From IMG/VR virus record IMGVR_UViG_3300030107_007542, positions 92,967 through 156,966 of that record: a stretch of 64,000 nucleotides of DNA. One strand, given 5' to 3'. The notes beneath the pieces were generated by a model. That model worked only from the letters and a program-made list of their open reading frames with translations. It ran no database searches and was not told the origin of the DNA. The DNA is from a virus. Of this stretch, positions 19,655 through 61,305 are shown in pieces (the first letter of the stretch is position 1; each line of letters begins with the position of its first letter). The translations under genes and the position numbers were made by a program.

Positions 19655-19656
19655 TT

Positions 19657-24981: not shown

Positions 24982-24983
24982 AA

Positions 24984-26501: not shown

Positions 26502-27354
26502 TCAAAGTCCTTTGTAGATTATCAGCAAATGTGTCGGCCATTGACATATAGTTTTTGGCAGTCTCAAAGTTTTCCTTCACTGCATCATATCTTTTATGAT
26601 ACTCTTCTGGCGATAAATTGTCAAGTATTTTAAATAATTCTTTTCCATCATTAAACGACAGAATTCCATCAGTATTGAAATACTCCCCTATGTTATCACA
26701 TCCCCAGAAAATTGGAATGGTGCCATGCCTGAACACGTCGACCAAGGTTTCCGTAAAATAGTTGTCCTGCTTTGAGTTCATAACCGTTATGCTAAAATAA
26801 TAATCTTTAAGCGGCTCCGTCTTACCCTCTTGTTGAGCAGCGCCAGTACCAATCTCAGGGTTGCCCCATGGGCGATAAGCTTCGCCCCACAAGTCAACAT
26901 CATAGCGGTCCTGGACCGAGCTGGCAACTACATGGCGTAACCGATGGCCTACGGTCCAGTTCTTTTTAGACGCTATTAGAGACATAAGCTTAGTCTTGTC
27001 ATGTAGACCCGCATCAGCATCAGCTACTCGCGAGGATGCAATAATACTCTTAACATATTTTGGACCTCTATCCAGAAGAGTTTGATCAAACGTAAAGATA
27101 TGATCAAATTTATGCTCCGTCTGAAGTATGTGATCATAGGCAAACGGATGAACTTCCCGGCACTCTAAAATCCAAGCAACCTTTTTAGTGCACTGTACCT
27201 TATCTACCCACGGTGACAATAAGTCCTTATCAGTAAAGACCGCAGGACCATCAAATGCTGGCTGACCATGAACCCACTCAATCTTCTCCTGCGAGTGTTC
27301 CTTATACCCTTCTGGCGTAAGACTATCAAATAAATTGGCTCTAAAGGTCGTCAT
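26491..27354 (-). CDS. Glycosyltransferase family 10-like (fucosyltransferase fold)
   Basis: 287 aa from ATG 27354, which has AGGGAC eight bases upstream; a 12-residue longer reading is possible. The C-terminal half has the FUT signature: YYFSITVMNSKQDNYFTETL, then VDVFRHGTIPIFWG, matching the family pattern of a Glu-containing helix followed by G-x-(V/I)-P. GT10 enzymes transfer fucose or related 6-deoxy sugars from GDP donors, in line with the nearby Gmd/ColD pathway. Donor and acceptor are not proven. It overlaps the phosphatase-like gene by 14 nt. Confidence 0.83.
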   Translation of the reverse strand: MTTFRANLFDSLTPEGYKEHSQEKIEWVHGQPAFDGPAVFTDKDLLSPWVDKVQCTKKVAWILECREVHPFAYDHILQTEHKFDHIFTFDQTLLDRGPKYVKSIIASSRVADADAGLHDKTKLMSLIASKKNWTVGHRLRHVVASSVQDRYDVDLWGEAYRPWGNPEIGTGAAQQEGKTEPLKDYYFSITVMNSKQDNYFTETLVDVFRHGTIPIFWGCDNIGEYFNTDGILSFNDGKELFKILDNLSPEEYHKRYDAVKENFETAKNYMSMADTFADNLQRTLNDK

Positions 27355-27646
27355 CAAAAAAGTCCCTGCTATTAATGGCTTTATCATCAATAAAAATGTC
27401 GTAATGAGGCTTCCCTAGTTTAAGTTCATGATGTTTAGCTCCCCACTCTTCTAACTGGTTGGTTGTTAGCTCAGTCCAGTCCCGGCCTGTTACACCGCCG
27501 CGAGCAGTCCAATAAACTATAGTATGACCGTCGTCATATAACTCATTAATTTTTTTGATGTTCTCGCGGAGAGGCTTTGCATCCGGATAATATCTTTCTC
27601 CAGCATAGAAACAAATTGTTTCATCTATATCCACGTAATATATCAT
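27341..27646 (-). CDS. Small HAD-like phosphatase
   Basis: 101 aa. MIYYVDIDETICF carries the HAD DxDxT motif (D6, D8); IVYWTARGG is motif II (the T), and KPHYDIFIDDKAINS provides the Lys and acidic pair. Such compact HADs often occur in capsule and heptose clusters. It could supply the phosphatase step (GmhB-like) needed between the two HldE activities, but GmhB is longer; this is speculation. Confidence 0.8.
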   Translation of the reverse strand: MIYYVDIDETICFYAGERYYPDAKPLRENIKKINELYDDGHTIVYWTARGGVTGRDWTELTTNQLEEWGAKHHELKLGKPHYDIFIDDKAINSRDFFDDDL

Positions 27647-27648
27647 TC

Positions 27649-27990
27649 CTAGTCTCCCTTCTGTATTCTGTGACTGTCGCTATCGAAATGTTCTGTTGAA
27701 AACTCAAACAATTCTGAGTCCTCTAGAGCGATCATCTGATGTCGCAGGCCGCGGTACACATGAAAGTTGTCGCCGGCATTAAGGATCAATTCAGTTGCTT
27801 GATCTAGATCGTCGTCGTCGGAATATTTGACTATCATCTTACCACTTTGCAAATAGAACACTTCATCCTTTAACACATGATAATGCCACGAACAACGCTT
27901 GCCTTTATTAAAATATAAAAGCTTTCCGCAATACTCTGGCTTGTTAACAATCCAGCGCTCCCAGCCCCATCCTTTGTCTACATGTTGCAT
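27649..27990 (-). CDS. Cupin, mannose-6-phosphate-isomerase-like / sugar-binding
   Basis: 113 aa from ATG 27990, with AGGTGG ahead of it; a longer reading runs into the RmlB gene. MQHVDKGWGWERWIVN resembles the start of type-II phosphomannose isomerase (GWGxE). SWHYHVLKDEVFYLQSGK provides H-x-H-...-E metal ligands of a cupin. These small proteins are common in phage and O-antigen clusters; isomerase activity is uncertain. Confidence 0.75.
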   Translation of the reverse strand: MQHVDKGWGWERWIVNKPEYCGKLLYFNKGKRCSWHYHVLKDEVFYLQSGKMIVKYSDDDDLDQATELILNAGDNFHVYRGLRHQMIALEDSELFEFSTEHFDSDSHRIQKGD

Positions 27991-27991
27991 A

Positions 27992-28942
27992 TTACCACCT
28001 AAAGTTGTTTCTACATTCTTCGACGATCTTAGTGATCTCTTCATGGAATTTTTTCTTAGGCTCCCAGCCTAAAGCGCGCAGCTTAGAATCATCTAGAGCA
28101 TAGCGTACGTCCTGACCTAGACGAACAACAGAAAAATCTACATATTGTTCCCAGTTTTCGTCGGTGCCATAAAATGCTTTCACGATTTGCTTTACTGTCT
28201 CCCGATTACTCTGCTCAAAGCCGCCGGCTACGTTATAAATCTCGTCCACCACGCCAGCCTCCACAATGGTGACAACTGCTGCCGCAGTGTCTTCAGCATG
28301 CAACCAGTTTCGCACGGGGGTTCCCTGGTTATGAAGTCGAATAGGGTTGTCGCGCGTAAGATTCTTTACAGCAATAGGGATTAATTTCTCTGGGTATTGT
28401 CCGATACCGTAGTTATTTGTCGGTCGCAAAATAATATAGTTGATATCATAGGTCCTGGCCCACGCATGAATAAGCATATCTGCAGCAGCCTTGGCGGCTG
28501 AGTATGGGTTGCTAGGCTTAAGAAGGTCTGTTTCGGTGTGATCACCGTCTGCAATATCTCCATACACTTCATCTGTGCTTACATGAAAGAAGATGGGTCG
28601 ATTATTGCAGTTTAATGGCTTATGACGGACCAAATCAAGAAGGTTTTTGACCCCCACAATATTACTGTTGATAAATTCGTCGCTGTTAATGATGCTGTTG
28701 CCCACATGTGACTCTGCCGCGAAGTTAATAACATAATCACAATCATAAAGATGCGTTAGATTACAGATATCTTCGCGTAAAAACCTAAAATTATAATAGG
28801 ATTCGAACTCTTCCAACAAAGACTCATTAGCTACGTAGGTACATTTGTCTATACCATACACTTTCCAGCCCAGTTCTAGGCATTTTCGTGTCGTATATGA
28901 CCCTATAAAGCCCAAGCATCCTGTAATATAAACAATTTTCAT
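27992..28942 (-). CDS. rmlB: dTDP-glucose 4,6-dehydratase (RmlB-like)
   Basis: 316 aa. GCLGFIGS at residues 8-15 binds NAD; HVSTDEVYGDI with T-D-E is the dehydratase triad; NPYSAAKAAADML gives Y-xxx-K; PEKLIPIAVKNL and NWLHAEDTA complete the RmlB pattern. The reaction gives dTDP-4-keto-6-deoxyglucose. No RmlA (nucleotidyltransferase supplying dTDP-glucose) is visible in this window, so the host would supply the substrate. Confidence 0.92.
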   Translation of the reverse strand: MKIVYITGCLGFIGSYTTRKCLELGWKVYGIDKCTYVANESLLEEFESYYNFRFLREDICNLTHLYDCDYVINFAAESHVGNSIINSDEFINSNIVGVKNLLDLVRHKPLNCNNRPIFFHVSTDEVYGDIADGDHTETDLLKPSNPYSAAKAAADMLIHAWARTYDINYIILRPTNNYGIGQYPEKLIPIAVKNLTRDNPIRLHNQGTPVRNWLHAEDTAAAVVTIVEAGVVDEIYNVAGGFEQSNRETVKQIVKAFYGTDENWEQYVDFSVVRLGQDVRYALDDSKLRALGWEPKKKFHEEITKIVEECRNNFRW

Positions 28943-30279
28943 TGATACTTCTCCATAAATCGATTCACAGAGCCTTCAATATAGTCTAATTTTTCATCAG
29001 TAATCCCGGCGAAAGTGCCCAAAAAGAAGGAATTAGTGGTGATTTTATAGGCTACCGGGAATGTCTCTTTAAGATTTTCGTACTGTCGGCCAAGCTCTGA
29101 GTATCCGGGGTGGAACAAAATGTTGCCGGCAAAATAACTGCGTGTTTGAATTTTATCCCCTTCCAGGTGGCGCACGATATCTTCACGCGTGAAGGGTGCA
29201 TCCTCCCTAAGTGTTAGCAAAAAGGCAAACCAACAGGGATCTGATTTGGGTGTGGGCTCTGGGAGGTGGCAGTACTTGGCATAGGGCTCGAAAATCTCAT
29301 GCAAACGTGCAAAGTTTTTGCGGCGGGCTCCGTCCATCATCGGAAGCTTCTTAAGCTGTTGTAATCCCATAGCTGCTTGCAGTTCTAGGGGCTTGATATT
29401 ATAGCCAATTTCTTCGAAAACATAACGATGGTCTGCAATGATCTCTCTCGCACCCGGGAGCCAGTTCTTGAACCTGTTGCCGCAAGCTGTCCCACTTAGG
29501 ACACATCCCGGCTTAACAGAATTGCAATAGCAAGCGCGGCCCCAATCACGGAAACTGCTGATGATTTTTTCTAGTCGAGCGGAGTTCATCGCGACGAAGC
29601 CGCCTTCGCCCATAGTCATATGATGAGCAGGGTAAAATGAACAGGTTGAGATATCCCCAAAAGAGCCGAGCTTCTTGCCGTCATATGTTGAACCCAAAGC
29701 ATCGCAAGCGTCTTCTAAGAAAAGTAAGTCATATTTCTCTACTAGGGCCATTACACGATCCATGTCGGGAGGATTCCCCAGCACATGAGCAAACATAAGA
29801 GCCTTGATCTCTTTGTTGGTGTCGGCAGCTAAGGCCGCTTCAACTTGATCAAGATCAAGATTTAAGTCTGGAAGAGTGACGTCCACGAAAACTGGTTTAA
29901 AGCCATTCTGGATAATCGGATTAAGAGTCGTAGGGAAGCATACAACGGGGGTAATAATTTTAGACCCCTCCGGGAGTTGCTTCCATCTTTTGGATTTAAG
30001 CGCCGACACCATAAGTAGGTTTGCAGAGCTACCTGAGTTTGTCAGGACTCCATGAGTCTTTCCTAGGTGTGCGGGGAACTCAACTTCAAATTGACGCCCC
30101 TTTTTGCCTAATACAAGCCATCGACTAAGCAGGCTTTCCACAGCAGCCACGTATTCGTCACTATTATATACGTTGCCTGAATAGGCAATCCAGTCCTCGC
30201 CAGGGGTCCAACTCTCGGCGCCCTCGCATTCTTTAATATATTCATCAACCAAAGTTAAGATAGTGTCTAACTTAGACAT
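28939..30279 (-). CDS. rfbH: RfbH/E1-type CDP-4-keto-6-deoxyglucose 3-dehydratase
   Basis: 446 aa, full length. CSFYPAHHMTMGEGG has His219 in place of the PLP Lys, the E1 mark. Cysteines C192, C250 and C252 match the C-x57-C-x-C spacing of the E1 [2Fe-2S] site. The fourth would be C259 or C266; C266 sits before GNRF as in relatives, so a ~6-residue insertion lies inside the cluster loop. Product: CDP-4-keto-3,6-dideoxyglucose after reduction by an E3 reductase; no E3 (AscD/RfbI) gene is visible here. Feeds 3,6-dideoxyhexoses and yersiniose-type branched sugars. Confidence 0.88.
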   Translation of the reverse strand: MSKLDTILTLVDEYIKECEGAESWTPGEDWIAYSGNVYNSDEYVAAVESLLSRWLVLGKKGRQFEVEFPAHLGKTHGVLTNSGSSANLLMVSALKSKRWKQLPEGSKIITPVVCFPTTLNPIIQNGFKPVFVDVTLPDLNLDLDQVEAALAADTNKEIKALMFAHVLGNPPDMDRVMALVEKYDLLFLEDACDALGSTYDGKKLGSFGDISTCSFYPAHHMTMGEGGFVAMNSARLEKIISSFRDWGRACYCNSVKPGCVLSGTACGNRFKNWLPGAREIIADHRYVFEEIGYNIKPLELQAAMGLQQLKKLPMMDGARRKNFARLHEIFEPYAKYCHLPEPTPKSDPCWFAFLLTLREDAPFTREDIVRHLEGDKIQTRSYFAGNILFHPGYSELGRQYENLKETFPVAYKITTNSFFLGTFAGITDEKLDYIEGSVNRFMEKYQ

Positions 30280-31096
30280 TTTGTTCCCTCTCCATGACCT
30301 GACGGATTCCTTCCTGTAATCCTACCAGATCTAGACCTAGTTCCTCCAGCCGAGCGCCGGAGCCGGTGTATGTATAAGCATATCCTTGCTTTTCTAATAT
30401 AATGCCTGTGCTATTCGTTGTCAAGTTGTTCAGTTCTTGTGCAACCTCTAACAAACTGCTTTTATCAGGATAACACATGTTATAGTCTACATGTGTTGTG
30501 TGTTTTCGCGTCATCAAATGTTCTATCACCTTGATAAGATCTCCCACATAAAAGAAATCCATCTTTCGATCTTGAAGGATAAAAACAGGAAGGCCCTCTC
30601 TTATTCTCGCCATTGAATTCTTAATGAATCTCGTACTTTTCTCCATTGTACCAAAACATCCGAACAAACGCAAGTTAATAATATTCTTATTATGCAGAAT
30701 AATCTCGCGAGCAATTAAATTCTTGGCTAGTCCGTAATAATCCGTGGGAATACATCCATAGATATTTTCTTCAACAGCATTCTCGACATTTGAGTACCTA
30801 TCAAATGCTGCGCCGGAGCCAAACGAAAACATCCACTTATACTTATCGGCATGCGCCTTAAGATTGTGAAACATATTTAAGTTAGCCCTAAGGGATGCGA
30901 AGCTATTGTCTGCTCTAACAGCAGTGTGGAGTACAACATCAATCCGGTGGTTAGAAAAAAAGCTCTCCACCTGTGTTGCATCTGTAAGATCTAGCGTTTG
31001 CCGTGGTGCGGCGATGACCTCATGAGTAGTTCGAGAAAAGTGCTCTACAAACTCTTTACCGAGAAAACCATTTGCTCCGGTTATTAATATCTTCAT
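30272..31096 (-). CDS. NAD-dependent sugar epimerase/reductase (SDR, RmlD/fucose-synthase-like)
   Basis: 274 aa. GANGFLG (residues 7-13) and GSGAAFD with a Ser in the central strand, then YYGLAKN for Y-xxx-K. NLRLFGCFG and YVGDLIKVIEHL are typical of reducing SDRs acting on deoxy-sugar nucleotides. Overlaps the RfbH gene by 8 nt. Confidence 0.8.
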   Translation of the reverse strand: MKILITGANGFLGKEFVEHFSRTTHEVIAAPRQTLDLTDATQVESFFSNHRIDVVLHTAVRADNSFASLRANLNMFHNLKAHADKYKWMFSFGSGAAFDRYSNVENAVEENIYGCIPTDYYGLAKNLIAREIILHNKNIINLRLFGCFGTMEKSTRFIKNSMARIREGLPVFILQDRKMDFFYVGDLIKVIEHLMTRKHTTHVDYNMCYPDKSSLLEVAQELNNLTTNSTGIILEKQGYAYTYTGSGARLEELGLDLVGLQEGIRQVMEREQNV

Positions 31097-31107
31097 TTAA
31101 CACTAGA

Positions 31108-32043
31108 TTATTCCACCCACTTCGCCGATTTTCTAAGCTCAGTTAGTTGCTCATCTTTAATCGAATATGAGTAGGTTTCTCCCGGGAAGGCTCCACTGTG
31201 TACATCTGCCACGTACTGCTCGATAGCCATTTTGGCCAACACTAGCAAACCATCGCCTCGCTGAGTGCGACCCAGTTGGCGAAGATCTCCGGCGGCTGAA
31301 AGATATTCAGTAAACCTACCTACAACCTCCGGTACATAACACTTTGCAAACCAAGGTCGGAAAGACTGATAGAAGCCCATCAGATCATGCATAATGACAA
31401 GTTGTCCGTCAACACCTCCGCCGGCGCCGATGCCATAAATAGGAATTTCCAGCTGCGCTGCGATCTGGGCCGCTGGTTCTGCTGGCATCGCTTCAAGCAA
31501 AATAGCAAAGACGCCAGCCTCTTGTAATGCCAATGCATCTTCAAGAGTATCCTCGAAGCTCTTTACAGTCTTTCCCTGGACTCGATATCCACCAAAGGAG
31601 GTTGTACTCTGAGGAGTGAGCCCCAGGTGCCCCACAACCGGAATACCTGCATCAACAATTGCGCGTACGCGAGTGGATACTCGGCGCCCTCCTTCTAGCT
31701 TGATAGCATCAGATGCGCACTCTTTTACAAAGCGCATTGCATTTCTAACTGCTTCCTCATCACTAATCTCATATGACCCCTGAGGCATGTCTCCCACAAT
31801 AAACGTATTTGGGGCGCCTCTGCGAGCAGAGGAGGCCATGAAAATCATTTCATCCATCGTAACCGGATTTGTGGTGTCGTATCCTAGTTGTACCATCCCC
31901 CCAGAATCGCCAACAAGAATCATATCAACTCCCGCTTCTTCCGTGACCTGAGCAAACGGCAAATCATAAGCCGTAATCCAAGTTAATGGAGTACCGTTCT
32001 TCTTCATGGATACAAAATCTAATATTGTTTTCTTAGTTGCCAT
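31108..32043 (-). CDS. panB: Ketopantoate hydroxymethyltransferase (PanB)
   Basis: 311 aa, slightly longer than the ~265-aa bacterial norm, with an extra C-terminal helix region. All family landmarks are present: VGDSGGM (D46) and VGDMPQGSY (D85) for Mg2+, KLEGG (K115, E117), GHLGLTPQS, FGGYRVQGKT, LLEAMPAE (E184, base) and IYGIGAG. PanB transfers a hydroxymethyl group from methylene-tetrahydrofolate to 2-oxoisovalerate in pantothenate synthesis. No panC, panE, ilvC or ilvD gene is nearby. Only one codon-length junction separates it from the acetolactate-synthase-like gene, so a joint role is likely. Confidence 0.93.
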   Translation of the reverse strand: MATKKTILDFVSMKKNGTPLTWITAYDLPFAQVTEEAGVDMILVGDSGGMVQLGYDTTNPVTMDEMIFMASSARRGAPNTFIVGDMPQGSYEISDEEAVRNAMRFVKECASDAIKLEGGRRVSTRVRAIVDAGIPVVGHLGLTPQSTTSFGGYRVQGKTVKSFEDTLEDALALQEAGVFAILLEAMPAEPAAQIAAQLEIPIYGIGAGGGVDGQLVIMHDLMGFYQSFRPWFAKCYVPEVVGRFTEYLSAAGDLRQLGRTQRGDGLLVLAKMAIEQYVADVHSGAFPGETYSYSIKDEQLTELRKSAKWVE

Positions 32044-33830
32044 TATTCCTCCTCAAGTGGTGCGACTACCATATTCTCGTAAAATTCTTCTCTGTCCAGG
32101 AAAGGAAGCATGTCCTCTAGCGGTCTAGAAATAAGGCGACCGTCGGGGAGCTTTTTCGAACCAATTGTTGGTAAGACCGCATCCCACTTTTTACACATCA
32201 CTTCACAAATTACTGGACCCTTGTATTCTAACACCCTTTTGATGCTTCTTTTAAGGCCTTTAAGCTTCGAGGCTCTAAAATATTTAATGCCATAAGCGTT
32301 GGCGATTTTTTGAAAATTAGGAAATGAAACTCCCGATTCCTCATCGGTACCAATAAACCTATCCTCAAAAAATTTTCTTTGTGTTGTGCGAATGGAAAGA
32401 TAACCATTGTTGTTCCACACAAATATCTTCACCGGAAATTTATTATAGACGATCGTTTGAAGTTCCTGAATGTTACTTTGGAATGAGCCGTCGCCAGTAA
32501 TGCCAATAACATCTTTGTTTCCGCGAGCAACACATGCGCCAATGCTTGCAGGGAGTGTAAAGCCCATATCGGCTTGACCGCCTGATGTAATATAGCGCTG
32601 TTTATTGGTTACCTGAAGCGCCTGGGATGTTACATAAAAGGCCGAGCCTGCATCCGATACCACCACATCGTCCGGTCGCATAGAATCAGACAGCACCTTC
32701 ATAAAGGCATAAAGACTTATGCCATCTTCGTCACTTTCAAAATGTTCTGGGAGAGAGACTGGCCACTTTGTTTTCCAGGCCAAACATTTCTGTGCCCATG
32801 GAGTGGGAGCCGGAGGGAATCCAACTTTTAGCAAAAACTCCTTAGCGTCTGCCACAATCAGATGGTCGATTCGGACGGTGTTCTTCTGGTGTTCGAACTT
32901 ATCAATGTCTACAACAATGAGCTTGGCCTCTCGACCAAACAACTCGTAACGATAACCAGTAACAGGGACGCCCAAGCGCGTGCCAATAGCCAAAATTACA
33001 TCGGCATTTTGCATGGCAAAATTAGCTGCTCGATTTCCTTTAATTCCTACGCGCCCAATATTGAGGGGATCGTTAGATGGCAAAAGATCTGCAGCCAGAT
33101 ATGTGTTCACTACAGGAATATTATGCAAATGCACAAACTCAGCAAAAATCTCTTGTGCGCCAGCCAATCGAATGCCGTTGCCTGCCAGAATTACGGGACG
33201 CTCTGCTTGTGCGAGATATCGACTAACAGCAGCGAGGTCCTCCACTTCTGGAACGAAGGATTCTTTTTCGGGTGTAAACCTCTTGAGCTTTTCAGGCTCG
33301 ATAAGAGCGCCCTGGACATCCATCGGAATATCAAGCCAGACTGGGCCCGGGCGGCCACTGAACGCTAGGTGTACAGCCTTATCAATATGGTAAGCAATCA
33401 TTTCAGGGTCATTAATCATGACCGCATATTTCGTCAATGATTCAACAATGGCAATAATATTGGCCTCTTGAACGCCAAGTTGTCGCAAAGGCAAATTAAT
33501 ATTATGTGTGGCCTGCTCTTTATTAACCTGACCAGAAATAAAAAAGGTAGGAAGGTTGTCCTGCCAAGCTTCCAGGAGCCCCGTTATAGTATTGGTGCTC
33601 CCGCACCCCGTTGTGGGCATCACAACGCCCATTTTGCCACTGTATTTGCCATAGCCAACCGCGGCCATTGCCGAAGCTTGCTCATGATGGCTACAGACTG
33701 CTTGTAGTTTTGGATGTTTGGCAACGCCGTCGTTTAAAAACATAGCACCGCCGCCGGTCAAGGTGAAAACATGTTCTACCCCCAGGTCAACGATTCGCTG
33801 TGCTACATAATCTACAACGCGGGTAGGCAT
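32043..33830 (-). CDS. Acetolactate-synthase-like ThDP enzyme
   Basis: 595 aa, full three-domain length. HHEQASAMAAVGYGK carries the catalytic Glu (E50); NGIRLAG and GTRLG lie in the middle domain; GDGSFQSNIQELQTIVYNKFPVKIFVWNNNGY is the ThDP motif. This is the acetohydroxyacid-synthase superfamily, which also includes YerE, the enzyme adding an acetyl unit from pyruvate to CDP-4-keto-3,6-dideoxyglucose. An RfbH/E1-type enzyme that would make that acceptor is two genes downstream. No regulatory (IlvN) subunit is visible. Overlaps PanB by one base and the GT2 gene by one base. Confidence 0.9.
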   Translation of the reverse strand: MPTRVVDYVAQRIVDLGVEHVFTLTGGGAMFLNDGVAKHPKLQAVCSHHEQASAMAAVGYGKYSGKMGVVMPTTGCGSTNTITGLLEAWQDNLPTFFISGQVNKEQATHNINLPLRQLGVQEANIIAIVESLTKYAVMINDPEMIAYHIDKAVHLAFSGRPGPVWLDIPMDVQGALIEPEKLKRFTPEKESFVPEVEDLAAVSRYLAQAERPVILAGNGIRLAGAQEIFAEFVHLHNIPVVNTYLAADLLPSNDPLNIGRVGIKGNRAANFAMQNADVILAIGTRLGVPVTGYRYELFGREAKLIVVDIDKFEHQKNTVRIDHLIVADAKEFLLKVGFPPAPTPWAQKCLAWKTKWPVSLPEHFESDEDGISLYAFMKVLSDSMRPDDVVVSDAGSAFYVTSQALQVTNKQRYITSGGQADMGFTLPASIGACVARGNKDVIGITGDGSFQSNIQELQTIVYNKFPVKIFVWNNNGYLSIRTTQRKFFEDRFIGTDEESGVSFPNFQKIANAYGIKYFRASKLKGLKRSIKRVLEYKGPVICEVMCKKWDAVLPTIGSKKLPDGRLISRPLEDMLPFLDREEFYENMVVAPLEEE

Positions 33831-34567
33831 TAATCGTCCCTACCCCAGGTACCCTTCCAATAGCCGCGGATAGTATCATCGTAATTGGTGGTTTCTTTGT
33901 GCATTCCCCATGTTGCTTGCCCGGGGTGCCACCGGTACTTATATCCTAACCAACGATCAGCTGGAAAAATGAACACGTTTTTATCGGCTAATCTAAAATA
34001 CAGGTGATAATCGGCAGCGCCTAGGTACTGCGGATCCCATTGCAACAGGCGACGCTCTTTAAGCTCTCGACTATACACCATGGTGGGAGTGTTGACAGGG
34101 CTTTTCTGGAACAAAAGTTCCTTAAACTCAGCCATGCTCTTGTAATGATGTGCCACCTCTCCTAGAAAGGTCTCTTCTTTTCCTTCAATTCCTTGAATCG
34201 GACTCTGGAATGCCAGAATTTTAACAGGAGCCTTTTCAATATACTCCATAAAATTAGCCACATAAGTGGGAATTATATAGTCATCGGCGCCTAAAATAGT
34301 GATATAATCACCGGTGCACAACTTAAGACCCTCAGTAACTGGCTCATCCCAAGACCATCGATACAGATTAGGAGCCGTTGAAATAACTAATTCAGGGTGA
34401 TCTTTTTGAATACCCCGGGCAATCTCTAGACTCTTGTCCGTGCTCTCATTATCAACGAAAATAACCTCTGTATTTTCATAAGTTTGATCAAGGGCCGAGA
34501 GAATGCATTTTTCAATCCAATCTTCGGCGTTATAACATGGTATTAAGATAGTAACTTTGAGACTCAT
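33830..34567 (-). CDS. Glycosyltransferase family 2
   Basis: 245 aa. The GT-A start VTILIPCYNAEDWIEKCI, then VIFVDNESTDKS (first Asp region) and ITILGADDYIIP with a DD metal motif at the end of the nucleotide domain. The C-terminal portion ends with a WHPGQATWG stretch. A cytosolic GT2 that would extend a glycan chain. Overlaps the next gene by 4 nt. Confidence 0.9.
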   Translation of the reverse strand: MSLKVTILIPCYNAEDWIEKCILSALDQTYENTEVIFVDNESTDKSLEIARGIQKDHPELVISTAPNLYRWSWDEPVTEGLKLCTGDYITILGADDYIIPTYVANFMEYIEKAPVKILAFQSPIQGIEGKEETFLGEVAHHYKSMAEFKELLFQKSPVNTPTMVYSRELKERRLLQWDPQYLGAADYHLYFRLADKNVFIFPADRWLGYKYRWHPGQATWGMHKETTNYDDTIRGYWKGTWGRDD

Positions 34568-35397
34568 TGCATCAATCCTATGATAAGATCGGGGATTTCA
34601 TCCCTCTTGGCGCGCATTTTATTAACTAAGTCGGAGCCCTTAAGTTTGAACCAACTTTCTTGTGTAGCTCCAACTAATTTATTGGTAATGACTTTCATTC
34701 CCATCATTCGACTTTCCACCACTATTCGAGACAGTGTTTCAGGTGTTTGGGGAAAGAAGACTAGCGTATCATTTTCCCCGAGTTGTTCCAGAAATGTATG
34801 ATAATTGGCACCGGAACACAGAACGTAATCTCGTTGCGTCGCTTTACAGTATTTGACTGCCGTGGGCGTGTTCTTGTGGACAATAGGGGAATCTAAAACA
34901 GCGCAGCGCTCCTTCTTTTCCGTGGTAGCCAGAGACTCTAGTTTTTCCAAAGCTTCCTCACTCCACAGATTTCCTCCAACACTCTCTATATTCTCCAACT
35001 TCAAATTCTTTTTAACTATATTAGCATGAAAGGAGCTTTGACACAACACCTTCCGAGCTTTTTGATAAAAATCTACATTTACCAAAGCGTGAGCCGGGGC
35101 GACGAAATTGTCGTAGCGCGCTGGATCTCGGGTTGTTAGATATTTGTGGTCATGTTCGTAAATGACATAGTTTTTCGATTTAAGGGCTTCGCGGCTTTCG
35201 GCAGAGAGCCCCATAAAGTTGGCCACAATAAATAGTTTAGCGCCACAAGTATTAATATAACCTGCATCAATTTGTTGGCTCTTTTTAGTCTCTACAGCTT
35301 GCCCCTTAGTTCGGAGAATATCTATCAATTCTTGATTATTGAGTTCACCGCCCCCTAAAATTTCATGGGCAAAAAAATCGGCTATGAATACAATCAT
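34564..35397 (-). CDS. Glycosyltransferase-like protein (GT-B, short)
   Basis: 277 aa. The N terminus IADFFAHEILGGGELNN is the GGxE-type opening of GT4-like GT-B enzymes. The C-terminal half has FFPQTPETLSRIVVESRMMG, matching the E-x7-E region of GT4. It is shorter than most (~350-400 aa), so it may be a reduced GT4 or a capsule-type transferase. Acceptor and donor unknown. Confidence 0.75.
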   Translation of the reverse strand: MIVFIADFFAHEILGGGELNNQELIDILRTKGQAVETKKSQQIDAGYINTCGAKLFIVANFMGLSAESREALKSKNYVIYEHDHKYLTTRDPARYDNFVAPAHALVNVDFYQKARKVLCQSSFHANIVKKNLKLENIESVGGNLWSEEALEKLESLATTEKKERCAVLDSPIVHKNTPTAVKYCKATQRDYVLCSGANYHTFLEQLGENDTLVFFPQTPETLSRIVVESRMMGMKVITNKLVGATQESWFKLKGSDLVNKMRAKRDEIPDLIIGLMQ

Positions 35398-35399
35398 AA

Positions 35400-36683
35400 T
35401 TAATCATGTACTTCGAGATCGAACCCTTCAAGCCATTCATTAACGTCTACCTCAGTCTCATCAACAATAAGAGAGACAAACTTGGCATACTGACCTTCTT
35501 TACTAAAGTTCGTGTCTACATATTTCTTAAGAGCCTTGGCCTGATTTTTAAAATGAACTGGCTTATCTATAACTTCCCTAAGTGCGCGACGATATGACGC
35601 CTCTTTAGCATACGTCCACATGGAGTCTGCTTGGATGACGCCTTCCCATCGGGCTGCTTCTTGTACGGGAGCCAGATCGTAATCTACACGAGCGACACGG
35701 GGGACCTGCTTCCCTTTCTTATTCGGGCGACAGATAAAGTCCATTTGTCCTCCCCACGTAACGGTTACAATAGGGAGTGAATTATAGGATGCTTCGAAAA
35801 GCGGTAATCCAAATCCTTCTCCATGAGAGAGGCTAATCAGAGCTTGCATTGTCGGGTGCTGATAAAGCCAGGTCATTTGCTCTTCAGAAAGCTGACCATG
35901 GACCAAATAAATCTTACACTTACGATCTGGAAAATCATGAATCAATGCCTGAAGGCGCTTCTTGGTATGAACCCGGTCCATAATGCTTTCATTTGCCGAA
36001 TTTAATTTCAACACCAACCCAACGTCAGGATCATCACTAAACTCACTGCAGAATGCGCGGACCGTTTGCTCCACGTTTTTACGAATGCCCCACTGTTTAA
36101 CACACAAGAAATTTTTAGTAGTCTCAAATGGAATATCAACCCCGTTTGGGTCTGGTTCGATATCCTTAACAGGATAGCTGATATACTCTACCGGCTTGGT
36201 AACGCGCCAGTTTTTAATCATCTCGCCCGTATGAGGGTTCGGGACATCATACGTGGTTTTCTCGATAACTTTCTTAGAGTGACTTGAAATAGTGATCACC
36301 TTATCCATCGTGTTATTAATCATCTCAATCCATTGAGGCGCAATCTTATTTGTCTCGATACCCGCTGTGTATCCAATATTAACTGGGGCGATGCGTTCAA
36401 ACTCATTAGGAATTGTAACCTGAAATGACATATCGAACTGTGGATTTGTCCCTTGTGCTTGGCATTCTTGGACATATTGATTAGTTTTCAGTATCAAGGA
36501 GTCAAGCCACTGCCTTTCCTCACTATGTTCTGCTATCATGCCAGTATTGCCCCATGGGATATTAAGAAGATGTATGTCGAACAAATCCTCACGAGAACGC
36601 ATAGAGCGCAAGGAAAACCGAGACTGCTCTCCGTAGCCCGATCGGGATAAAGCTGGTGCTTTCACCAAAATTCTTTTTCTCAT
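35400..36683 (-). CDS. Glycosyltransferase family 4
   Basis: 427 aa. Starts with a SRSGYGEQSRFSLRS loop typical of phage and O-antigen GT4 proteins; SLSHGEGFGLPLFEASYNSLPIV is the E-x7-E nucleotide-sugar motif, with WGGQMDF after it. Cytosolic. Its stop lies 2 nt before the short GT-like gene. Confidence 0.9.
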   Translation of the reverse strand: MRKRILVKAPALSRSGYGEQSRFSLRSMRSREDLFDIHLLNIPWGNTGMIAEHSEERQWLDSLILKTNQYVQECQAQGTNPQFDMSFQVTIPNEFERIAPVNIGYTAGIETNKIAPQWIEMINNTMDKVITISSHSKKVIEKTTYDVPNPHTGEMIKNWRVTKPVEYISYPVKDIEPDPNGVDIPFETTKNFLCVKQWGIRKNVEQTVRAFCSEFSDDPDVGLVLKLNSANESIMDRVHTKKRLQALIHDFPDRKCKIYLVHGQLSEEQMTWLYQHPTMQALISLSHGEGFGLPLFEASYNSLPIVTVTWGGQMDFICRPNKKGKQVPRVARVDYDLAPVQEAARWEGVIQADSMWTYAKEASYRRALREVIDKPVHFKNQAKALKKYVDTNFSKEGQYAKFVSLIVDETEVDVNEWLEGFDLEVHD

Positions 36684-37933
36684 TATAAAACCTCAACTCC
36701 GTATGATTTGTATCCGGTTCTCGTCTCCCAAGAACCCTTCTCTTCGTAAACTTTAGTAAGCAGCTCGTCCCATCTTTCCATAAACGTCTCAAAATTAAAC
36801 TGCTTAAGGGCGTATTCACGGCCTAGTCGGCCGAGTTCATCACGCTCTTCTTGGGACTTCAAAAACATTTCCTTCATAGCGCCCACTACATCTGCTTCTG
36901 ACAGCCGATCTTCATAAATATATGGTACGGTTTGCGAACCAATCACCGCCTTAGATGTTGGCTCGATACCTATCCCGAAGGTGGTAGTGCCATCTGTAAT
37001 CTGATCCTGCATTCCTCCTGTGAGGTTTACAATGATGGGCGTCTCGCATGCTAAAGATTCCAGTGTCGCGAGGCCGAAACCCTCCGCGTCAGAAATATTA
37101 ATGGTGCAGTCGACCGCGTTGTATAGTAACGCTAGATTTGCAGCATCCATCTTTTCTCGGGAAAACAATACTTCGCCGTTTTTCAGCCCAAGCTCCGCGA
37201 TGATGGCTTCCAGGTCTTGACCATTGGGGTCTTTAGGTTCCGTATGCATGATAAGGACCGCCTTGTCATGACCCACTTCGTCCAAGAATTTCTTAAACCA
37301 GAAGATCAAGGTTCCCGACTGTTTACGGCGAGCGTTGCGGTTGTTCCAGAAAAAATAAAACTTATCAGGATCGAAGCGACCCTTCGTAAAATCATTGAGA
37401 AGTGGTGAATCTACCTTCTTAAAAATATCCATATCTACTGCATGAGGAAGATAGGTAGAATCGACATCCGGGGCAACATTCTGAACTATGTCGTATGTAA
37501 GCTTAGAGATGCACGCGATGTGATCATTAGAATCATAATATGGCTTATTGAAATGCGGATAAGGGTAGTTGTCCCACACATGATAATAAACCATAGGGAC
37601 CTGGGCACGGATTTCATTCTCGATACCCCACAACCATTCATAAAAGCGTGGATCGGTCATAAACCAGAGGATATCGGGCTTTTGCTGGCCAATCATAGCA
37701 CGGACTTGGTCAGGATTGCCATATCCATCAACCGGCCAAATAATCCAGTCTTCATCCCACTTCTCTGTCTTTTGTGGGTTATGGTCTGGATGAGAGATTG
37801 CACCCCCAAACGACACAAACTGGTACTTTCCTGTTTTAAGCATGCCTTCAATCATATACTTAGTTTGAGTGCCTACCCCCGAAGGCGAAAGAGGATGGTC
37901 ACTGATCGTAAAGATCTTAATTTTATCTGACAT
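36683..37933 (-). CDS. Glycosyltransferase family 4
   Basis: 416 aa. SPSGVGTQTKYMIEGM is the GT4 N-terminal acceptor loop; DAEGFGLATLESLACETPII is the E-x7-E motif, followed by LTGGMQDQI. A paralogue-like pair with the next gene (overlap one base). It is the first of the glycan cluster in transcription order, 9 nt after the nuclease gene. Confidence 0.9.
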   Translation of the reverse strand: MSDKIKIFTISDHPLSPSGVGTQTKYMIEGMLKTGKYQFVSFGGAISHPDHNPQKTEKWDEDWIIWPVDGYGNPDQVRAMIGQQKPDILWFMTDPRFYEWLWGIENEIRAQVPMVYYHVWDNYPYPHFNKPYYDSNDHIACISKLTYDIVQNVAPDVDSTYLPHAVDMDIFKKVDSPLLNDFTKGRFDPDKFYFFWNNRNARRKQSGTLIFWFKKFLDEVGHDKAVLIMHTEPKDPNGQDLEAIIAELGLKNGEVLFSREKMDAANLALLYNAVDCTINISDAEGFGLATLESLACETPIIVNLTGGMQDQITDGTTTFGIGIEPTSKAVIGSQTVPYIYEDRLSEADVVGAMKEMFLKSQEERDELGRLGREYALKQFNFETFMERWDELLTKVYEEKGSWETRTGYKSYGVEVL

Positions 37934-45398: not shown

Positions 45399-45710
45399 TC
45401 ATTCGCAACAGTTTATATCGTCATGAGTGTCAGGTTTGTTGGTCACCTTAAGCCACAAGCCCCACAGAATCGGAATCGCTAGCCAATGAAAACATAGAAC
45501 TAAAGATGCTGGAATTCCAGCGAAAAACGCTGGATGTACATAGTTGCCTAAGATCCCAAATATAATTGGGAAAACAACATCCTCAACAATCTCCCACCCA
45601 ACAAAGATGATGACAAATGCTAGTCCATTTTTCTTAAGAAAGGCCTTCAGCTTTTCAATAGAAAAGTTGCTTAGTTTATGAGAGATTCTGGATTTTAGCC
45701 AACTAATCAT
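45399..45710 (-). CDS. Membrane protein of unknown function
   Basis: 103 aa. Two hydrophobic segments (residues ~30-55 and ~64-92: GLAFVIIFVGWEIVEDVVFPI, then AGIPASLVLCFHWLAIPILW), with acidic and Cys-containing C terminus. Its ATG is 8 nt after the CCA of the tmRNA-like RNA. Function unknown. Confidence 0.65.
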   Translation of the reverse strand: MISWLKSRISHKLSNFSIEKLKAFLKKNGLAFVIIFVGWEIVEDVVFPIIFGILGNYVHPAFFAGIPASLVLCFHWLAIPILWGLWLKVTNKPDTHDDINCCE

Positions 45711-45718
45711 AAGTTTTT

Positions 45719-45800
45719 TGGTGGAGGTGCGCGGAATCGAACCGCGGTCCTGAGACTACCATTGCAGGTTTTAATCCCAGTCGAAACCAGAGCCACCCCC
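45719..45800 (-). ncRNA. tmRNA-like tRNA-like domain lacking the message part (mini-tmRNA)
   Basis: An 82-nt minus-strand RNA with both ends of a tmRNA joined by a short hairpin. Acceptor stem GGGGGTG (45800-45794) pairs with CACCTCC (45729-45723), includes a G3-U70 wobble (alanine identity), discriminator A and encoded CCA (45719-45721). GGTTTCGACTGGG is the tmRNA D-loop signature, GGAC precedes the T arm as in tmRNAs, and the T arm is CGCGG-TTCGATT-CCGCG. Between them TGGGATTA pairs with TAGTCTCA (8 bp, two wobbles) capped by AAACC-TGCAAT-GG: helix P2 without pseudoknots or tag reading frame. It is not a cloverleaf tRNA. No similar one-piece element is known to me in a phage; charging with alanine is inferred. 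Confidence 0.85.
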
Positions 45801-45834: not shown

Positions 45835-46197
45835 TTATTCTAAATCATTCTTATAGGAGTTCTTAATGTCATATTTACGTTTCAAAGCTTTAAAGGTCTG
45901 CTCACTAATTCCTAAGATTCTAGTAGCCCCCTTATTGGTATCAGTTATACTAATCACTGCATTATATAGCGCTTCCTTCGTAATATCAACCACATTCGAC
46001 CAAAGATTAAATCCATATAGTTTCCCCCCAGTTAGTCGACTGGAGCATTCTAATTTAAGGCCTATTAGTTCTTCCAAGGTTAATGTGGAGAGCATGATTT
46101 CAAATGCCTCGTTAGATTTGTTTTCGTCTCTCAACTTTTTAGAGAGAGAAAGATCTTTACAAAAACCCTGCGAACTTCGTCGCGGAGGTTTGTTCAT
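45835..46197 (-). CDS. Small protein with C-terminal Fis-like helix-turn-helix
   Basis: 120 aa. The last ~45 residues (ALYNAVISITDTNKGATRILGISEQTFKALKRKYDI) have the Fis/NtrC C-terminal HTH pattern: helix, N-x-GA-x-x-LGIS-x-x-T-x-x-x-KLKKY-like. The N-terminal ~75 residues are charged and helical. A DNA-binding role is likely; no activator ATPase domain is present. Sits upstream of the mini-tmRNA. Confidence 0.65.
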   Translation of the reverse strand: MNKPPRRSSQGFCKDLSLSKKLRDENKSNEAFEIMLSTLTLEELIGLKLECSSRLTGGKLYGFNLWSNVVDITKEALYNAVISITDTNKGATRILGISEQTFKALKRKYDIKNSYKNDLE

Positions 46198-56824: not shown

Positions 56825-58069
56825 ATGAGCGTCTTCCGTAAACACAAATCCATCGTCGATCGCGCCGCATCCGATCGGACGCGTCACAAAAAAAAGATTG
56901 ACAAGGCAATTAAAGAGTCAATTAAAGATGTGGTGGCCGAAGAATCCATTATTGGACAAAATGGCAAGAAAAAGATCCGTATTCCGGTAAAAGGGATCAA
57001 AGAATATCGTTTTATCTACGGAAATAACGAAAAAAACCAGTCTGTTGGCTCTGGAGGGGATCATACTCTTAAAAGAGGTCAGAAAATCGGTGGCAAACGC
57101 GCCAAGAAGGGCCAAGGCCAAGGCCAAGGGAAAGCTAGCAATGAGCGCGGCGAGGAGTACTACGACGTAGAGATTACCCTAGAGGAATTAGCTGAATACC
57201 TCTTCAATGACCTTAATTTGCCCGATTTGGAGAAAAAACAGTTCCGTTTCATCACACAAGAGTCTATAAAGCGCAAAGGATACCGCTTTCAGGGCATTCG
57301 GCCGCGGCTCTCTAAAAAAGAGACCATTAAAAGGAAGATTCGACGTCGAAAACGCGCTGAAAAGGCCGGTACCTATGATCCAGAGGGTGACGAGCGCTTT
57401 CCTTTTCACAAAGATGACCTGAAATATCACCATATTAAGCCCAAATCGAAAGAAAACAGTGCAGCAGTCATCTTTTTTCTCATGGACGTGTCGGGATCTA
57501 TGTCTCAGGACCGAAAATTCCTTGCAAGGAGCTTCTTTTTCCTCTTATATCAGTTTCTAAACCATAAATACGAGAAATTAGATGTTGTTTTCATCTCTCA
57601 CAGTACATATGCAGAGCGTGTTAACGAAAATGACTTCTTTCGGGTGGCCTCAAACGGCGGAACTCTGATTTCAAGCGCTTTGGACAAAGAATTAGAAATA
57701 ATTGACAAAGAATATCACCCAAATGCCTGGAATATTTATACTTTTTACTGTGGCGATGGTGAAAATTGGGCATCTGACAACGAAAAAGCTGTTGATGACT
57801 TTAAAAAGATTAAAGAGGTTAACCAATTGGTAGGATATTGTGAAATTAATGAAAATTATTCGGGACTTGCGGACACAGATGACAATCCCTCCACCTGGAC
57901 GGGGCTCCCATGGGGTACTTTTTCGGCATGGAAAAACGAAGAGCCCGATAATCTATGGTCCAATTTAAATCCTATATGTGACAGCTCATTCAAACGAATT
58001 ATGATTGGAAGCACGGACCATATATGGCAAGCCTTTACATATCTATTTGGAGGAGGCTCTAATGAGTAA
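56825..58069 (+). CDS. yeaH: YeaH/YhbH-family protein (DUF444, VWA domain)
   Basis: 414 aa, family length. The basic N terminus (SIVDRAASDRTRHKKKI) and GSGGD...RGQKI are typical of YeaH. A VWA MIDAS motif is at MDVSGSM (D221, S223, S225). SRPF, FHKDDLKYHHI and FISHSTYAERV, NENDFF stretches also match DUF444. In bacteria YeaH partners with the kinase YeaG (PrkA) and with SpoVR. First gene behind the sigma-70 promoter. Confidence 0.92.
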   Translation: MSVFRKHKSIVDRAASDRTRHKKKIDKAIKESIKDVVAEESIIGQNGKKKIRIPVKGIKEYRFIYGNNEKNQSVGSGGDHTLKRGQKIGGKRAKKGQGQGQGKASNERGEEYYDVEITLEELAEYLFNDLNLPDLEKKQFRFITQESIKRKGYRFQGIRPRLSKKETIKRKIRRRKRAEKAGTYDPEGDERFPFHKDDLKYHHIKPKSKENSAAVIFFLMDVSGSMSQDRKFLARSFFFLLYQFLNHKYEKLDVVFISHSTYAERVNENDFFRVASNGGTLISSALDKELEIIDKEYHPNAWNIYTFYCGDGENWASDNEKAVDDFKKIKEVNQLVGYCEINENYSGLADTDDNPSTWTGLPWGTFSAWKNEEPDNLWSNLNPICDSSFKRIMIGSTDHIWQAFTYLFGGGSNE

Positions 58070-59369
58070 TTGGACAGTTGGCGACCTGGAGATGTGGGAC
58101 AACAAAATATGCAAGGTTGCTACAGATTTTGATCTAGATTGGTTCCCCATCGACTATGAAATCATAGATTATCAAGAAATGCTGGGAGCTATGGCTTATA
58201 CTGGTATTCCGACCCACTACCGCCACTGGTCCTATGGAAAAGAATACGAGCGCACACATACTCTTTATAACATGGGGCAGACTGGTCTTCCCTATGAGAT
58301 GATCATCAATTCTAACCCGAGTATTGCATACCTGATGCGTGAAAATCCTTTGTACATTCACGTACTGACGATGGCACACTGTGTGGGACATAGTGACTTT
58401 TTTAAACAAAATCGCATGTTTGCCCACACCAATCCCGACAACGTCATGAGTACTTTTAAGGCAGCTGCAAAGTATGTTAGGCAGCTTATTGAGGATCCTT
58501 CAATTGGAATTGAAAAGGTTGAGCGCATTCTGGATGCTGCACATGCCATTAAATACCAGGTCCCGCGCTATCCTGGGATCACTTATAAAACAAGAGAAGA
58601 GTGGGTGGCGATCGAGCGTAAAAAACAACAGAAAGATCCCACCTATCAAGTAGATCTAAAAAAATACCCTCATGAGCCAGAGTATAACCTACTGCTTTTT
58701 ATAGCCAACAATAGTCGAAACCTTGAAGACTGGGAACGAAACTTATTGATGATCGTAGAAGAAAACTCACAGTATTTCATTCCTCAGGCACTTACGAAGA
58801 TAATGAATGAGGGGTGGGCTTGCACTATTCATCAAAAGATTATCAATGAATTGAATCTTCCGGACAAGCTATATTTACCCTTTATTAAATTACACAACCA
58901 AGTGGTACGCCCCCACTTGGGTACTGTCAATCCTTACCATTTAGGGTTTGAATTATTCAAGAAGATTATCGAAGAGCACGGTTTTGAAGAAGCGATGCTA
59001 ATTCGCGAAACACATAATGATATTACCTTTTTGAGAACCTATTTAGATCAAGAGTTTCTTATGGATCAAAATCTTTTTAGTTATTCATTTAAATCGGCTT
59101 ACAAATCAAGTACAATTGATGATATATCAGATGAAGGTGGCTGGGAGCGCATCAGGGATGCTCTTATCTCTAACGTAGGGTTGAACCGCGTACCTGTTGT
59201 GTTTGTAATGGAAATGAATAAGGATCACAAATTAACCTTAGTTCATGAACATGATGGTAGAGATCTAGATGTGCCTTATGCACAAAAAGTTTTTGATTAC
59301 ATAAAAGACCTTTGGGGAGATGAGATAGTACTTCTCTCTCAGATAGAGGGCGAAACATGGGAGTTTTAG
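58062..59369 (+). CDS. spoVR: SpoVR family protein (YcgB-like)
   Basis: 435 aa from the ATG at 58062; a 19-residue longer reading overlaps YeaH further and lacks a site, while this ATG follows GGAGG inside the last YeaH codons. The start LDWFPIDYEIIDYQEMLGAMAYTGIPTHYRHWSYGKEYERT is a SpoVR signature, and AHCVGHSDFF, NSRNLEDWERNLL, PHLGTVNPYHLGF, FLRTYLDQEFL match. SpoVR is needed for B. subtilis cortex formation; in proteobacteria it is a starvation gene. Confidence 0.93.
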   Translation: MSNWTVGDLEMWDNKICKVATDFDLDWFPIDYEIIDYQEMLGAMAYTGIPTHYRHWSYGKEYERTHTLYNMGQTGLPYEMIINSNPSIAYLMRENPLYIHVLTMAHCVGHSDFFKQNRMFAHTNPDNVMSTFKAAAKYVRQLIEDPSIGIEKVERILDAAHAIKYQVPRYPGITYKTREEWVAIERKKQQKDPTYQVDLKKYPHEPEYNLLLFIANNSRNLEDWERNLLMIVEENSQYFIPQALTKIMNEGWACTIHQKIINELNLPDKLYLPFIKLHNQVVRPHLGTVNPYHLGFELFKKIIEEHGFEEAMLIRETHNDITFLRTYLDQEFLMDQNLFSYSFKSAYKSSTIDDISDEGGWERIRDALISNVGLNRVPVVFVMEMNKDHKLTLVHEHDGRDLDVPYAQKVFDYIKDLWGDEIVLLSQIEGETWEF

Positions 59370-59370
59370 C

Positions 59371-61305
59371 ATGGGAGTAACAAACAAGTTTCTGGAAACG
59401 ATCCAGGCACACAAGGAGGGCGCCAAAAAAGAAAAGTTTGATGGCCTTCTCCAAGATTACTTAGAACTTATTGAAAACGGCGACGTCAAGCCGGTATTGG
59501 CTCACAAGCGCCTGTACGATGGCATCCTCTCGTATGGCATGGAGACGCTAGACGAGTCTGACAGTCGATGCAATAAGATCTTCGACGGCGAGCCAGTGCG
59601 TATTTATGATTATTTTGCATCTCAATTCTTTGGCATGGAGCGCTCTTTAGAGAAAGTAATGCGATTCCTCCATTCTGCTGCCATGAAGGGAGAGGAAAGT
59701 CGACAGGTCTTGCTACTTCTGGGCCCTGTAGGCGCCGGAAAGTCAGCTCTCGTAGAACACATCAAGAGCGCCCTGGAGAAGCTTGACCCGGTTTATACTC
59801 TCAAGGGTTGTCCAATTCAAGAAGAGCCGCTCCACTTGATCCCTCGCTCTCTAAGAGCAGAGTTTGAGGAGTTGTACAACGTCAAGATTGAAGGAGACCT
59901 TTGCCCGGTCTGTCGACACCGACTTTTAAAAGAATACGAGGGGGACTACACACGATTTCCCATTACTGAGGTCTCATTCTCAATTCGCGGCCGTAAGGGT
60001 GTCGGCGTCGTGCCTCCCATGGATCCGAACACTCAAGACACAAGCCTCCTCATTGGCTCCGAAGATATTTCAAAACTAGATCTCTATCCGGAGGACGACC
60101 CCCGCGTACTTAGCCTTAATGGTGCTTTTAATGTAGGTAATCGAGGTATCGTCGAGTTTGTCGAGGTCTTTAAAAACGAAATTGAATTCCTTCATACCAT
60201 GATCACAGCCACGCAGGAAAAGAGTGTTCCATCGCCAGGCAAACAGGCTATGATTTATTTTGATGGCGTCATTCTAGCTCACTGTAATGAAGCAGAGTGG
60301 AACAAGTTTAAATCTGAACATACCAACGAAGCTATCCTGGATCGAATTGTGAGGGTGAATGTTCCTTACTGTTTAGAGTACGAGCAGGAAGTAAAGATTT
60401 ATGAAAAGCTCCTTGGCCGCTCAGATTATCGGTGTCATATCGCGCCGCACACACTAGAGGTAGCCGCAATGTTCGCTGTTCTGTCGCGACTACACTCCTC
60501 CAATAAAGCTGACCCCTTGACCAAGATGAAAATCTACAACGGTGAGGAAATCATTGAAAAGGGTCTCATTCGTAAAATTGATATTAAAGATCTTCGTGAA
60601 GAAGTAGAAGACGAAGGAATGACAGGAATCTCTACTCGCTTTATCATGAAAGCCATTGATGCCGCACTAGCCGACTCCACTAAAGATATGATCACTCCCA
60701 TATCGATTCGGGATGCTCTGATTAAACAGGTAAAAGAACAGATTACCAATTCGGACGCCAAGAAGACATATCTCTCATATCTTCAGAAAACACTTCATGA
60801 GGAATATCTAACAATCCTTGAGAAGGAAATTACCAAGGCATTTGTTACAGCTTATGAAGAGCAAGCTGAGTCCCTCTTTAACAACTACCTTGATCACGCC
60901 GAGGCCTATGTTAATAACACCAAGGTAAAGGATAAAGTTACCAGCGAAGACATGGAACCCGATGAGAAGTTCCTCCAATCAATTGAGGAGCAGATCGGCA
61001 TTAAGGGTTCTGCCAAGAACAACTTCCGAGCTGACATTACCTCCTACATGTTTTCAAAGTTGCGGCGAGGAGAAGCAATTGACTGGCGTTCTTATGGTCC
61101 TCTAAGGGAGGCGATTGAAACAAAGCTTGTTGCATCGGTGCGAGACATTTCTCGAATTATCACAAAGTCTAAGTCGCGCGATACCAAGCAGCAACGTAAG
61201 TTCAGCTCAATGGTTCAGACCTTAATTGACAATTATGGTTATAATGAAGATTCAGCCGAAGAAGTGATAAAGTTTGCTAGCAACAATCTTTGGAGAGACT
61301 CTTAA
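59371..61305 (+). CDS. prkA: PrkA serine protein kinase / AAA protein
   Basis: 644 aa, full-length. The PrkA AAA domain begins with MGVTNKFLETI, has FFGMERSLEKVM, Walker A GPVGAGKS (118-125), DTSLLIGSEDISKLDLYPEDDPRVLSLNGAF near 230-260, and the family-specific GKQAMIYFDGVILAHCNEAEW. The C-terminal kinase region includes GISTRFIMKAIDAALAD and helices to the end. Starts 2 nt after the SpoVR stop. Its TAA overlaps, in convergent orientation, the stop of the thioesterase gene. Confidence 0.95.
   Translation: MGVTNKFLETIQAHKEGAKKEKFDGLLQDYLELIENGDVKPVLAHKRLYDGILSYGMETLDESDSRCNKIFDGEPVRIYDYFASQFFGMERSLEKVMRFLHSAAMKGEESRQVLLLLGPVGAGKSALVEHIKSALEKLDPVYTLKGCPIQEEPLHLIPRSLRAEFEELYNVKIEGDLCPVCRHRLLKEYEGDYTRFPITEVSFSIRGRKGVGVVPPMDPNTQDTSLLIGSEDISKLDLYPEDDPRVLSLNGAFNVGNRGIVEFVEVFKNEIEFLHTMITATQEKSVPSPGKQAMIYFDGVILAHCNEAEWNKFKSEHTNEAILDRIVRVNVPYCLEYEQEVKIYEKLLGRSDYRCHIAPHTLEVAAMFAVLSRLHSSNKADPLTKMKIYNGEEIIEKGLIRKIDIKDLREEVEDEGMTGISTRFIMKAIDAALADSTKDMITPISIRDALIKQVKEQITNSDAKKTYLSYLQKTLHEEYLTILEKEITKAFVTAYEEQAESLFNNYLDHAEAYVNNTKVKDKVTSEDMEPDEKFLQSIEEQIGIKGSAKNNFRADITSYMFSKLRRGEAIDWRSYGPLREAIETKLVASVRDISRIITKSKSRDTKQQRKFSSMVQTLIDNYGYNEDSAEEVIKFASNNLWRDS

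Follow-up and report, generated by a model that had tools for sequence, protein, structure and literature searches.

Nearly all bacteria have ribosome rescue, which is also a drug target. Phages are known to supply tRNAs of their own and, in some cases, an entire tmRNA. The described RNA closest to the one analysed here belongs to Mycobacterium phage DS6A, the original work on which is reportedly that of Mao et al. 2009. This RNA is listed as a 'TLD only' tmRNA (PMC4131195) and is the phage example of the TLD-only form in the 2025 tmRNA database paper (PMC11915505). In E. coli, the cell's own tmRNA is reportedly inhibited by a TLD-only molecule (PMC4131195, PMC11915505); the former source describes this inhibition as seen whether or not the molecule is chargeable, with titration of SmpB as a possible mode (PMC4131195). 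Regular charged tmRNA, together with EF-Tu and SmpB, enters stalled ribosomes, and the nascent chain passes to it (PMC3985003, PMC8012679). An engineered TLD hairpin, its ends joined by a UUCG loop, was co-crystallised with SmpB (PDB 2CZJ; described in PMC3985003).

The window, a 64,000-nt stretch of a 193.8-kb IMG/VR virus record, encodes at 45719-45800 on the minus strand a complete tmRNA tRNA-like domain in which the ~300-nt message and pseudoknot part is replaced by a short hairpin. A preliminary description of this locus had stated that no phage example was known; this claim of novelty fails because the DS6A RNA has been published as 'TLD only' (PMC4131195), and the kind is therefore already known. 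What appears to be new is how broad the family is, that its design with a capped P2 is conserved, that the charging signal is never lost and that the SmpB junction is altered in one subclass. No report of a broad phage family of such RNAs was found in the open-access literature searched, an absence that is no proof of novelty.

Anatomy and genomic setting of the RNA

Compared by Infernal with all 4227 Rfam families, the window RNA (in the following called mini-tmRNA or mini) was identified as tmRNA (RF00023) with 72.9 bits and E=2e-26, above the gathering threshold of 47 bits. The alignment spans model positions 1-374, with 10 nt replacing 303 model positions, which bears out the earlier proposal of tmRNA ends without the message. 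With these 303 positions, the reading frame for the tag, including its resume and stop codons, is missing from the mini; pseudoknots are likewise absent, and only a 29-nt hairpin is found, located at 45751-45779 as previously claimed. Our own family model R1 gave 77.1 bits, and ARAGORN called neither a tRNA nor a tmRNA at this position.

The acceptor GGGGGTG/CACCTCC with G3.U70, the signature GGTTTCGAC, GGAC, the T arm and the encoded ACCA could all be read on the minus strand as described before (Table 1). Thus, the mini has the G3.U70 and A73 of a tmRNA acceptor, a D region (GGNUUCGAC) opposite GGAC and the T arm, while AAA and a short P2b hairpin stand in place of message and pseudoknots. 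The predicted fold comprises acceptor, P2 and T arm. The folding energy of the single sequence provides mild support (z=-1.8), hence the strong evidence is comparative, consisting of 95 relatives and compensatory changes.

Table 1 Coordinates of the mini-tmRNA, its parts and the adjacent genes within the window.
Feature	Position	Strand	Basis or remark
120-aa gene upstream of the mini	45835..46197	(-)	syntenic in two related phages
Mini-tmRNA: tmRNA tRNA-like domain + capped P2	45719..45800	(-)	82 nt including encoded ACCA
Acceptor 5' strand GGGGGTG, nt 1-7, with G3 of G3.U70	45794..45800	(-)	sequence; relatives
D-loop-like region GCTCTGGTTTCGA, nt 8-20, with G19 A20 equivalents of the SmpB-contact motif	45781..45793	(-)	Rfam alignment; G19 role PMC8363625
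Helix P2a 5' strand CTGGGATT	45773..45780	(-)	8-bp helix in fold; P2 covariation
AAA internal-loop bases + P2b hairpin ACC-TGCAAT-GGT	45758..45772	(-)	family consensus AAAnCCGCAnnnGGA
Helix P2a 3' strand AGTCTCAG	45750..45757	(-)	fold; P2 covariation
GAC, G333 A334 equivalents, opposite G19 A20	45747..45749	(-)	sequence, Rfam alignment; PMC1168896
T arm CGCGG-TTCGATT-CCGCG	45730..45746	(-)	sequence, Rfam alignment; pairs 1-3 covary
Acceptor 3' strand CACCTCC (U70) + discriminator/CCA end ACCA	45719..45729	(-)	sequence; relatives
103-aa gene downstream of the mini, start 8 nt past CCA	45399..45710	(-)	in one of two relatives

Three other identities were discarded. A tRNA-Ala would have an anticodon arm, which is absent, the P2 hairpin taking its place, and ARAGORN calls no tRNA. 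A permuted two-piece tmRNA is ruled out by both acceptor strands lying in standard order within 82 nt and by alpha_tmRNA not being in the record. The full record contains no full tmRNA or alpha-type two-piece tmRNA, and the hidden message part considered in the preliminary description was not found in it. An ssrA attachment-site fragment, representing the 3' end only, is ruled out by the presence of both ends and a covarying P2.

From its baseplate, endolysin and PhoH genes, the window phage is recognised as a large tailed phage. The mini sits between genes on the same strand, neither of which has a Pfam or PHROG match. The spacing of CCA, 8 nt and ATG, previously likened to that of the true tRNAs, holds for the mini itself, but the distance is 7 nt for tRNA-Thr and about 13 for tRNA-Asn. 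In two related phages (contigs L247 and L248), most shared proteins are 45-85% identical to those of the window phage and the mini lies at the same place. These two minis show paired substitutions in T stem and P2, and the flanking intergenic DNA has diverged. Elsewhere in the window, adjoining DUF444, SpoVR and PrkA kinase genes, a trio associated with stress and sporulation in bacteria, lie at 56825-61305(+). A sugar-nucleotide or surface-polysaccharide-like cluster extends over 18917-37933(-), with a PfkB kinase, epimerases, a DegT aminotransferase, an acetolactate-synthase-like enzyme and a glycosyltransferase.

Conservation and variation within the viral family

We searched IMG/VR with a pattern fixing TTCGAC, GGAC and part of the T arm and allowing 20-50 nt between the first two (pattern 1). 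A perfect 7-bp acceptor, which is not part of the pattern, and a T stem were present in 113 of the 120 matches listed. With the window mini and a few others added, the pattern 1 set comprised at least 95 distinct sequences with a mean pairwise identity of 68%. For the selection of the 95, acceptor pairing and four out of five T-stem pairs were required, P2 pairing was not. No evidence can be drawn from the conservation of TTCGAC, GGAC or the letters of the T arm among the 95, since pattern 1 fixed them; G3.U70 and A73 were not required by the search, and G1-C72, G2-C71, G3.U70 and A73 occur in 95 of 95 sequences of the pattern 1 set. The CCA is encoded in 29 of the 95. A blastn search of the annotated phage collection with the window mini yielded no full-length relative, only matches to the 3' end (T arm and acceptor).

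Across the 95 sequences, acceptor pairs 4-6, T pairs 1-3 and P2 pairs 2-7 occur as three to six pair types each, and covariation in all three helices is far above that in shuffles. P2 is paired at 92%, falling to 36-45% when P2 is slid by 1-3 bases. The ends, the G-U pair and P2, on whose conservation in relatives the preliminary description had made its reading depend, are therefore all conserved. The number of relatives, the strong helix covariation and the constant G3.U70 and A73 show that the mini is the product of neither chance nor decay. Following a P2a of ~8 bp, most members have AAA(R), a 2-4 bp stem, e.g., CCG-CAnG-CGG, and then A. P2a and P2b are likewise set apart in the full-length RF00023 consensus, with 3 nt between them on the 5' side and a single nt on the 3' side. 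In our reading, the mini is a tmRNA of which only the first few pairs of P2b are left, with a small loop closing them.

Pattern 2 constrained a GGGGSYG/CRSCTCC acceptor and the T arm alone, leaving the SmpB motif free. It gave 94 distinct folding matches and, in union with the pattern 1 set, at least 155 distinct relatives. According to our parse, exact UUCGA[P2]GAC is found in only 31 of the 94, and the remaining members have the near variants UUUGA or AUCGA, or AGC[P2]NAC. The apical AAARCC..GG hairpin occurs in 33 of 60 variants versus 26 of 34 members with UUCGA (simple test). With model R1, all 42 junction-variant loci tested reached E<=1e-5 or better; the RF00023 threshold was passed by 7 of the 16 examined for it. 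The variants keep the D-loop GG (62/63), a G at or adjoining position 19 (55/63) and A334-C335 (56/63), and A20.G333 is replaced in part of the wider family. In described tmRNA, G19 is reported to pack against SmpB, with A334 lining the pocket of Trp122 (PMC8363625), and 19-GA-20/333-GA-334 form non-Watson-Crick pairs (PMC1168896). Replacement of A20.G333 might weaken SmpB binding. A pattern pair without acceptor constraint (pattern pair 3) returned three further junction variants, all with G3.U70; its matches lacking G3.U70 looked like ordinary tRNAs or chance. The alanine signal thus appears to be the most constant feature wherever testable, the unbiased sample of variants being small.

Some of the contigs showed additional RNA elements. 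Two viral contigs with junction-variant minis also contain type II hammerhead ribozymes (RF02276; L264:974-1038(-) and L292:5839-5903(+)). Another mini-bearing contig has a second, divergent mini-like RNA (L275:3208-3291(+)) with a GGGTGTG/CACATCC acceptor and G3.U70, and in a further mini-like RNA (L323:12855-12941(-)) P2 is an unusually long, nearly perfect hairpin.

Carriers of the mini-tmRNA

Pattern 1 was also run on one genome per bacterial or archaeal species. Just two of the 117 matches listed passed the acceptor and T-stem test, versus the 113 of 120 in viruses; the family appears strongly concentrated in viruses, the ratio being a rough one from the matches listed in both scans. The two passing matches lie on a contig binned with a Pseudanabaenaceae cyanobacterium and on a contig in an Acidimicrobiaceae MAG.

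The carrier set comprised 47 records, 42 viral contigs and 5 cultured phages. RF00023 matched 45 of the 47, in 43 of them above threshold. We found no SmpB gene in any of the 47, nor in the 193.8-kb record of the window phage; the control search detected SmpB in 10 of 14 named genomes, the four misses being the four archaea. A full tmRNA was present in a single carrier (G008), which has a mini at C1:46486-46567 and a 392-nt tmRNA at 77588-77979. Since none of the 47 has SmpB and one has a full tmRNA, SmpB and AlaRS of the host would have to be used. Long ARAGORN tmRNA calls over the minis of L010, L066 and L102 were set aside as over-extended.

The cultured carriers include the Streptomyces phages LuckySocke, GiJojo, pSt2308, Shaeky and BRock; Streptomyces phage Alone3 has a weaker copy (36.8 bits), and Arthrobacter phage Mimi gave weak sub-threshold matches only. 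In all cultured carriers checked, the mini was unannotated. It lies inside a tRNA cluster in all five Streptomyces phage regions inspected (that of GiJojo not among them) and directly upstream of the major capsid gene in Pontimonas phage phiPsal1. PaoPu and TG1, related to carriers in their structural genes, are without a mini. The flanks of 71 of 95 metagenomic loci are without an ARAGORN tRNA or tmRNA. No partner gene is conserved across carriers; most of the genes that recur beside the minis are ordinary ones for structure or replication, among them terminase, portal, protease and capsid-type genes.

Possible mode of action and known counterparts

The DS6A-type RNA provides a precedent that makes a tagless competitor or inhibitor plausible. 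We lean, with slightly more belief than doubt, toward the mini being a phage-made tagless tmRNA that acts as a charged competitor of host tmRNA, suppressing or diverting trans-translation. This reading starts from the observed RNA anatomy, conservation, covariation, virus-borne distribution and absence of a phage SmpB. The transcript would undergo tRNA-like processing, receive alanine from host AlaRS via G3.U70 and be bound by host SmpB and EF-Tu. It would then enter ribosomes stalled on broken messages, competing with host tmRNA, and would accept the nascent chain, offering no reading frame. The nascent protein would be left untagged for proteolysis, and normal trans-translation would be suppressed or diverted during infection. 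However, phages with full-length tmRNA exist (PMC9004378, PMC4131195), hence blocking trans-translation is no universal phage need.

Charging and ribosome entry would be irrelevant if the mini were a plain sponge that only titrates host SmpB off tmRNA, which we consider unlikely. Such titration is stated as a possible mode for the TLD-only molecule in PMC4131195, and the carriers have no SmpB of their own; because inhibition was seen in chargeable and non-chargeable form, charging may not matter for it. A pure sponge should, however, tolerate loss of the charging signal, and G3.U70, A73 and the full acceptor stem were kept in 95 of 95 sequences, which favours the charged competitor. The variant subclass, moreover, alters the SmpB-side motif and keeps G3.U70 in the few testable cases. 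Retention of the charging signal would equally suit a helpful tagless rescue, in which charged mini and SmpB free stalled ribosomes and leave phage proteins unmarked for proteolysis, in the manner of the message-less mitochondrial tmRNAs. Those RNAs lack the tag frame and are conserved together with SmpB (PMC11915505), and minis are often near late structural genes, as in phiPsal1. We rate this rescue as improbable, a shade more so than the sponge: without a reading frame there is no obvious termination and release, as argued for mitochondria (PMC11915505), and the effect reported in E. coli is inhibition.

If the host has an RNase, an RNA-repair factor or a defence factor by which tmRNA or tRNA-Ala is attacked or read, the mini might be its decoy, for which a faithful tRNA-like end would be needed. 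SmpB-like domains occur in predicted defence systems (CoCoNuTs, PMC11090510), but no partner gene recurs beside the minis across carriers, making this a far-fetched option. We give the least credence of all to the view that a host tmRNA gene left the mini behind, as a degenerate remnant or as a copy at an attachment site. Some phages do integrate in ssrA and carry its 3' end, and 3'-only matches were found in mycobacteriophages, one of them annotated AttP. Against this stand both ends and a covarying middle helix in 95 sequences, the synteny of the mini in relatives of the window phage, and the separate full tmRNA, with different T stems, in both mini-bearing genome bins; the att remnant raised in the preliminary description was rejected accordingly.

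That very many viruses carry a mini suggests that viral interference with host rescue of stalled ribosomes may be common. With a common viral RNA that retains just the half of tmRNA used for rescue entry, phages would directly attack ribosome rescue or take it over. Extended beyond the charged competitor, the proposal is that message-less, alanine-chargeable tmRNAs form a widespread, essentially viral class of regulatory RNAs that would commandeer AlaRS and SmpB of the host, so that the tagging of proteins from stalled ribosomes is jammed or bypassed, and that one subclass has rewritten its SmpB junction by replacing A20.G333 and keeping G19 and A334; we see this as evenly poised between right and wrong. 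ARAGORN misses the mini, and the cultured phages checked carry it without annotation; as several of these have tractable hosts, the idea is testable at once.

Compared with known systems, the mini shares with bacterial tmRNA (RF00023) the G3.U70 acceptor, D region, P2a, asymmetric P2a/P2b junction, GGAC, T arm and CCA, but it is cut within P2b, closed by a small loop and devoid of tag frame and pseudoknots. Full-length tmRNAs of the Bxz1 group, Bacillus phage G and Melnitz are also phage-carried, but retain the message. The message-less mitochondrial tmRNAs of jakobids and oomycetes and the ~65-bp plastid tmRNA of Mallomonadaceae have, as the mini, kept the tRNA-like domain and lost the tag frame; the mitochondrial ones have a nucleus-encoded SmpB, whereas phage minis would have to use that of the bacterial host. 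The phage minis also offer a counterpart to these unexplained organellar RNAs. The engineered TLD of PDB 2CZJ has the same layout as the mini. The DS6A RNA, going by its description, resembles the window mini in being phage-encoded and tagless with little beyond the tRNA-like domain; in contrast to that single case, the form is here shared by many different viruses, its capped P2 hairpin being conserved and its junctions varying.
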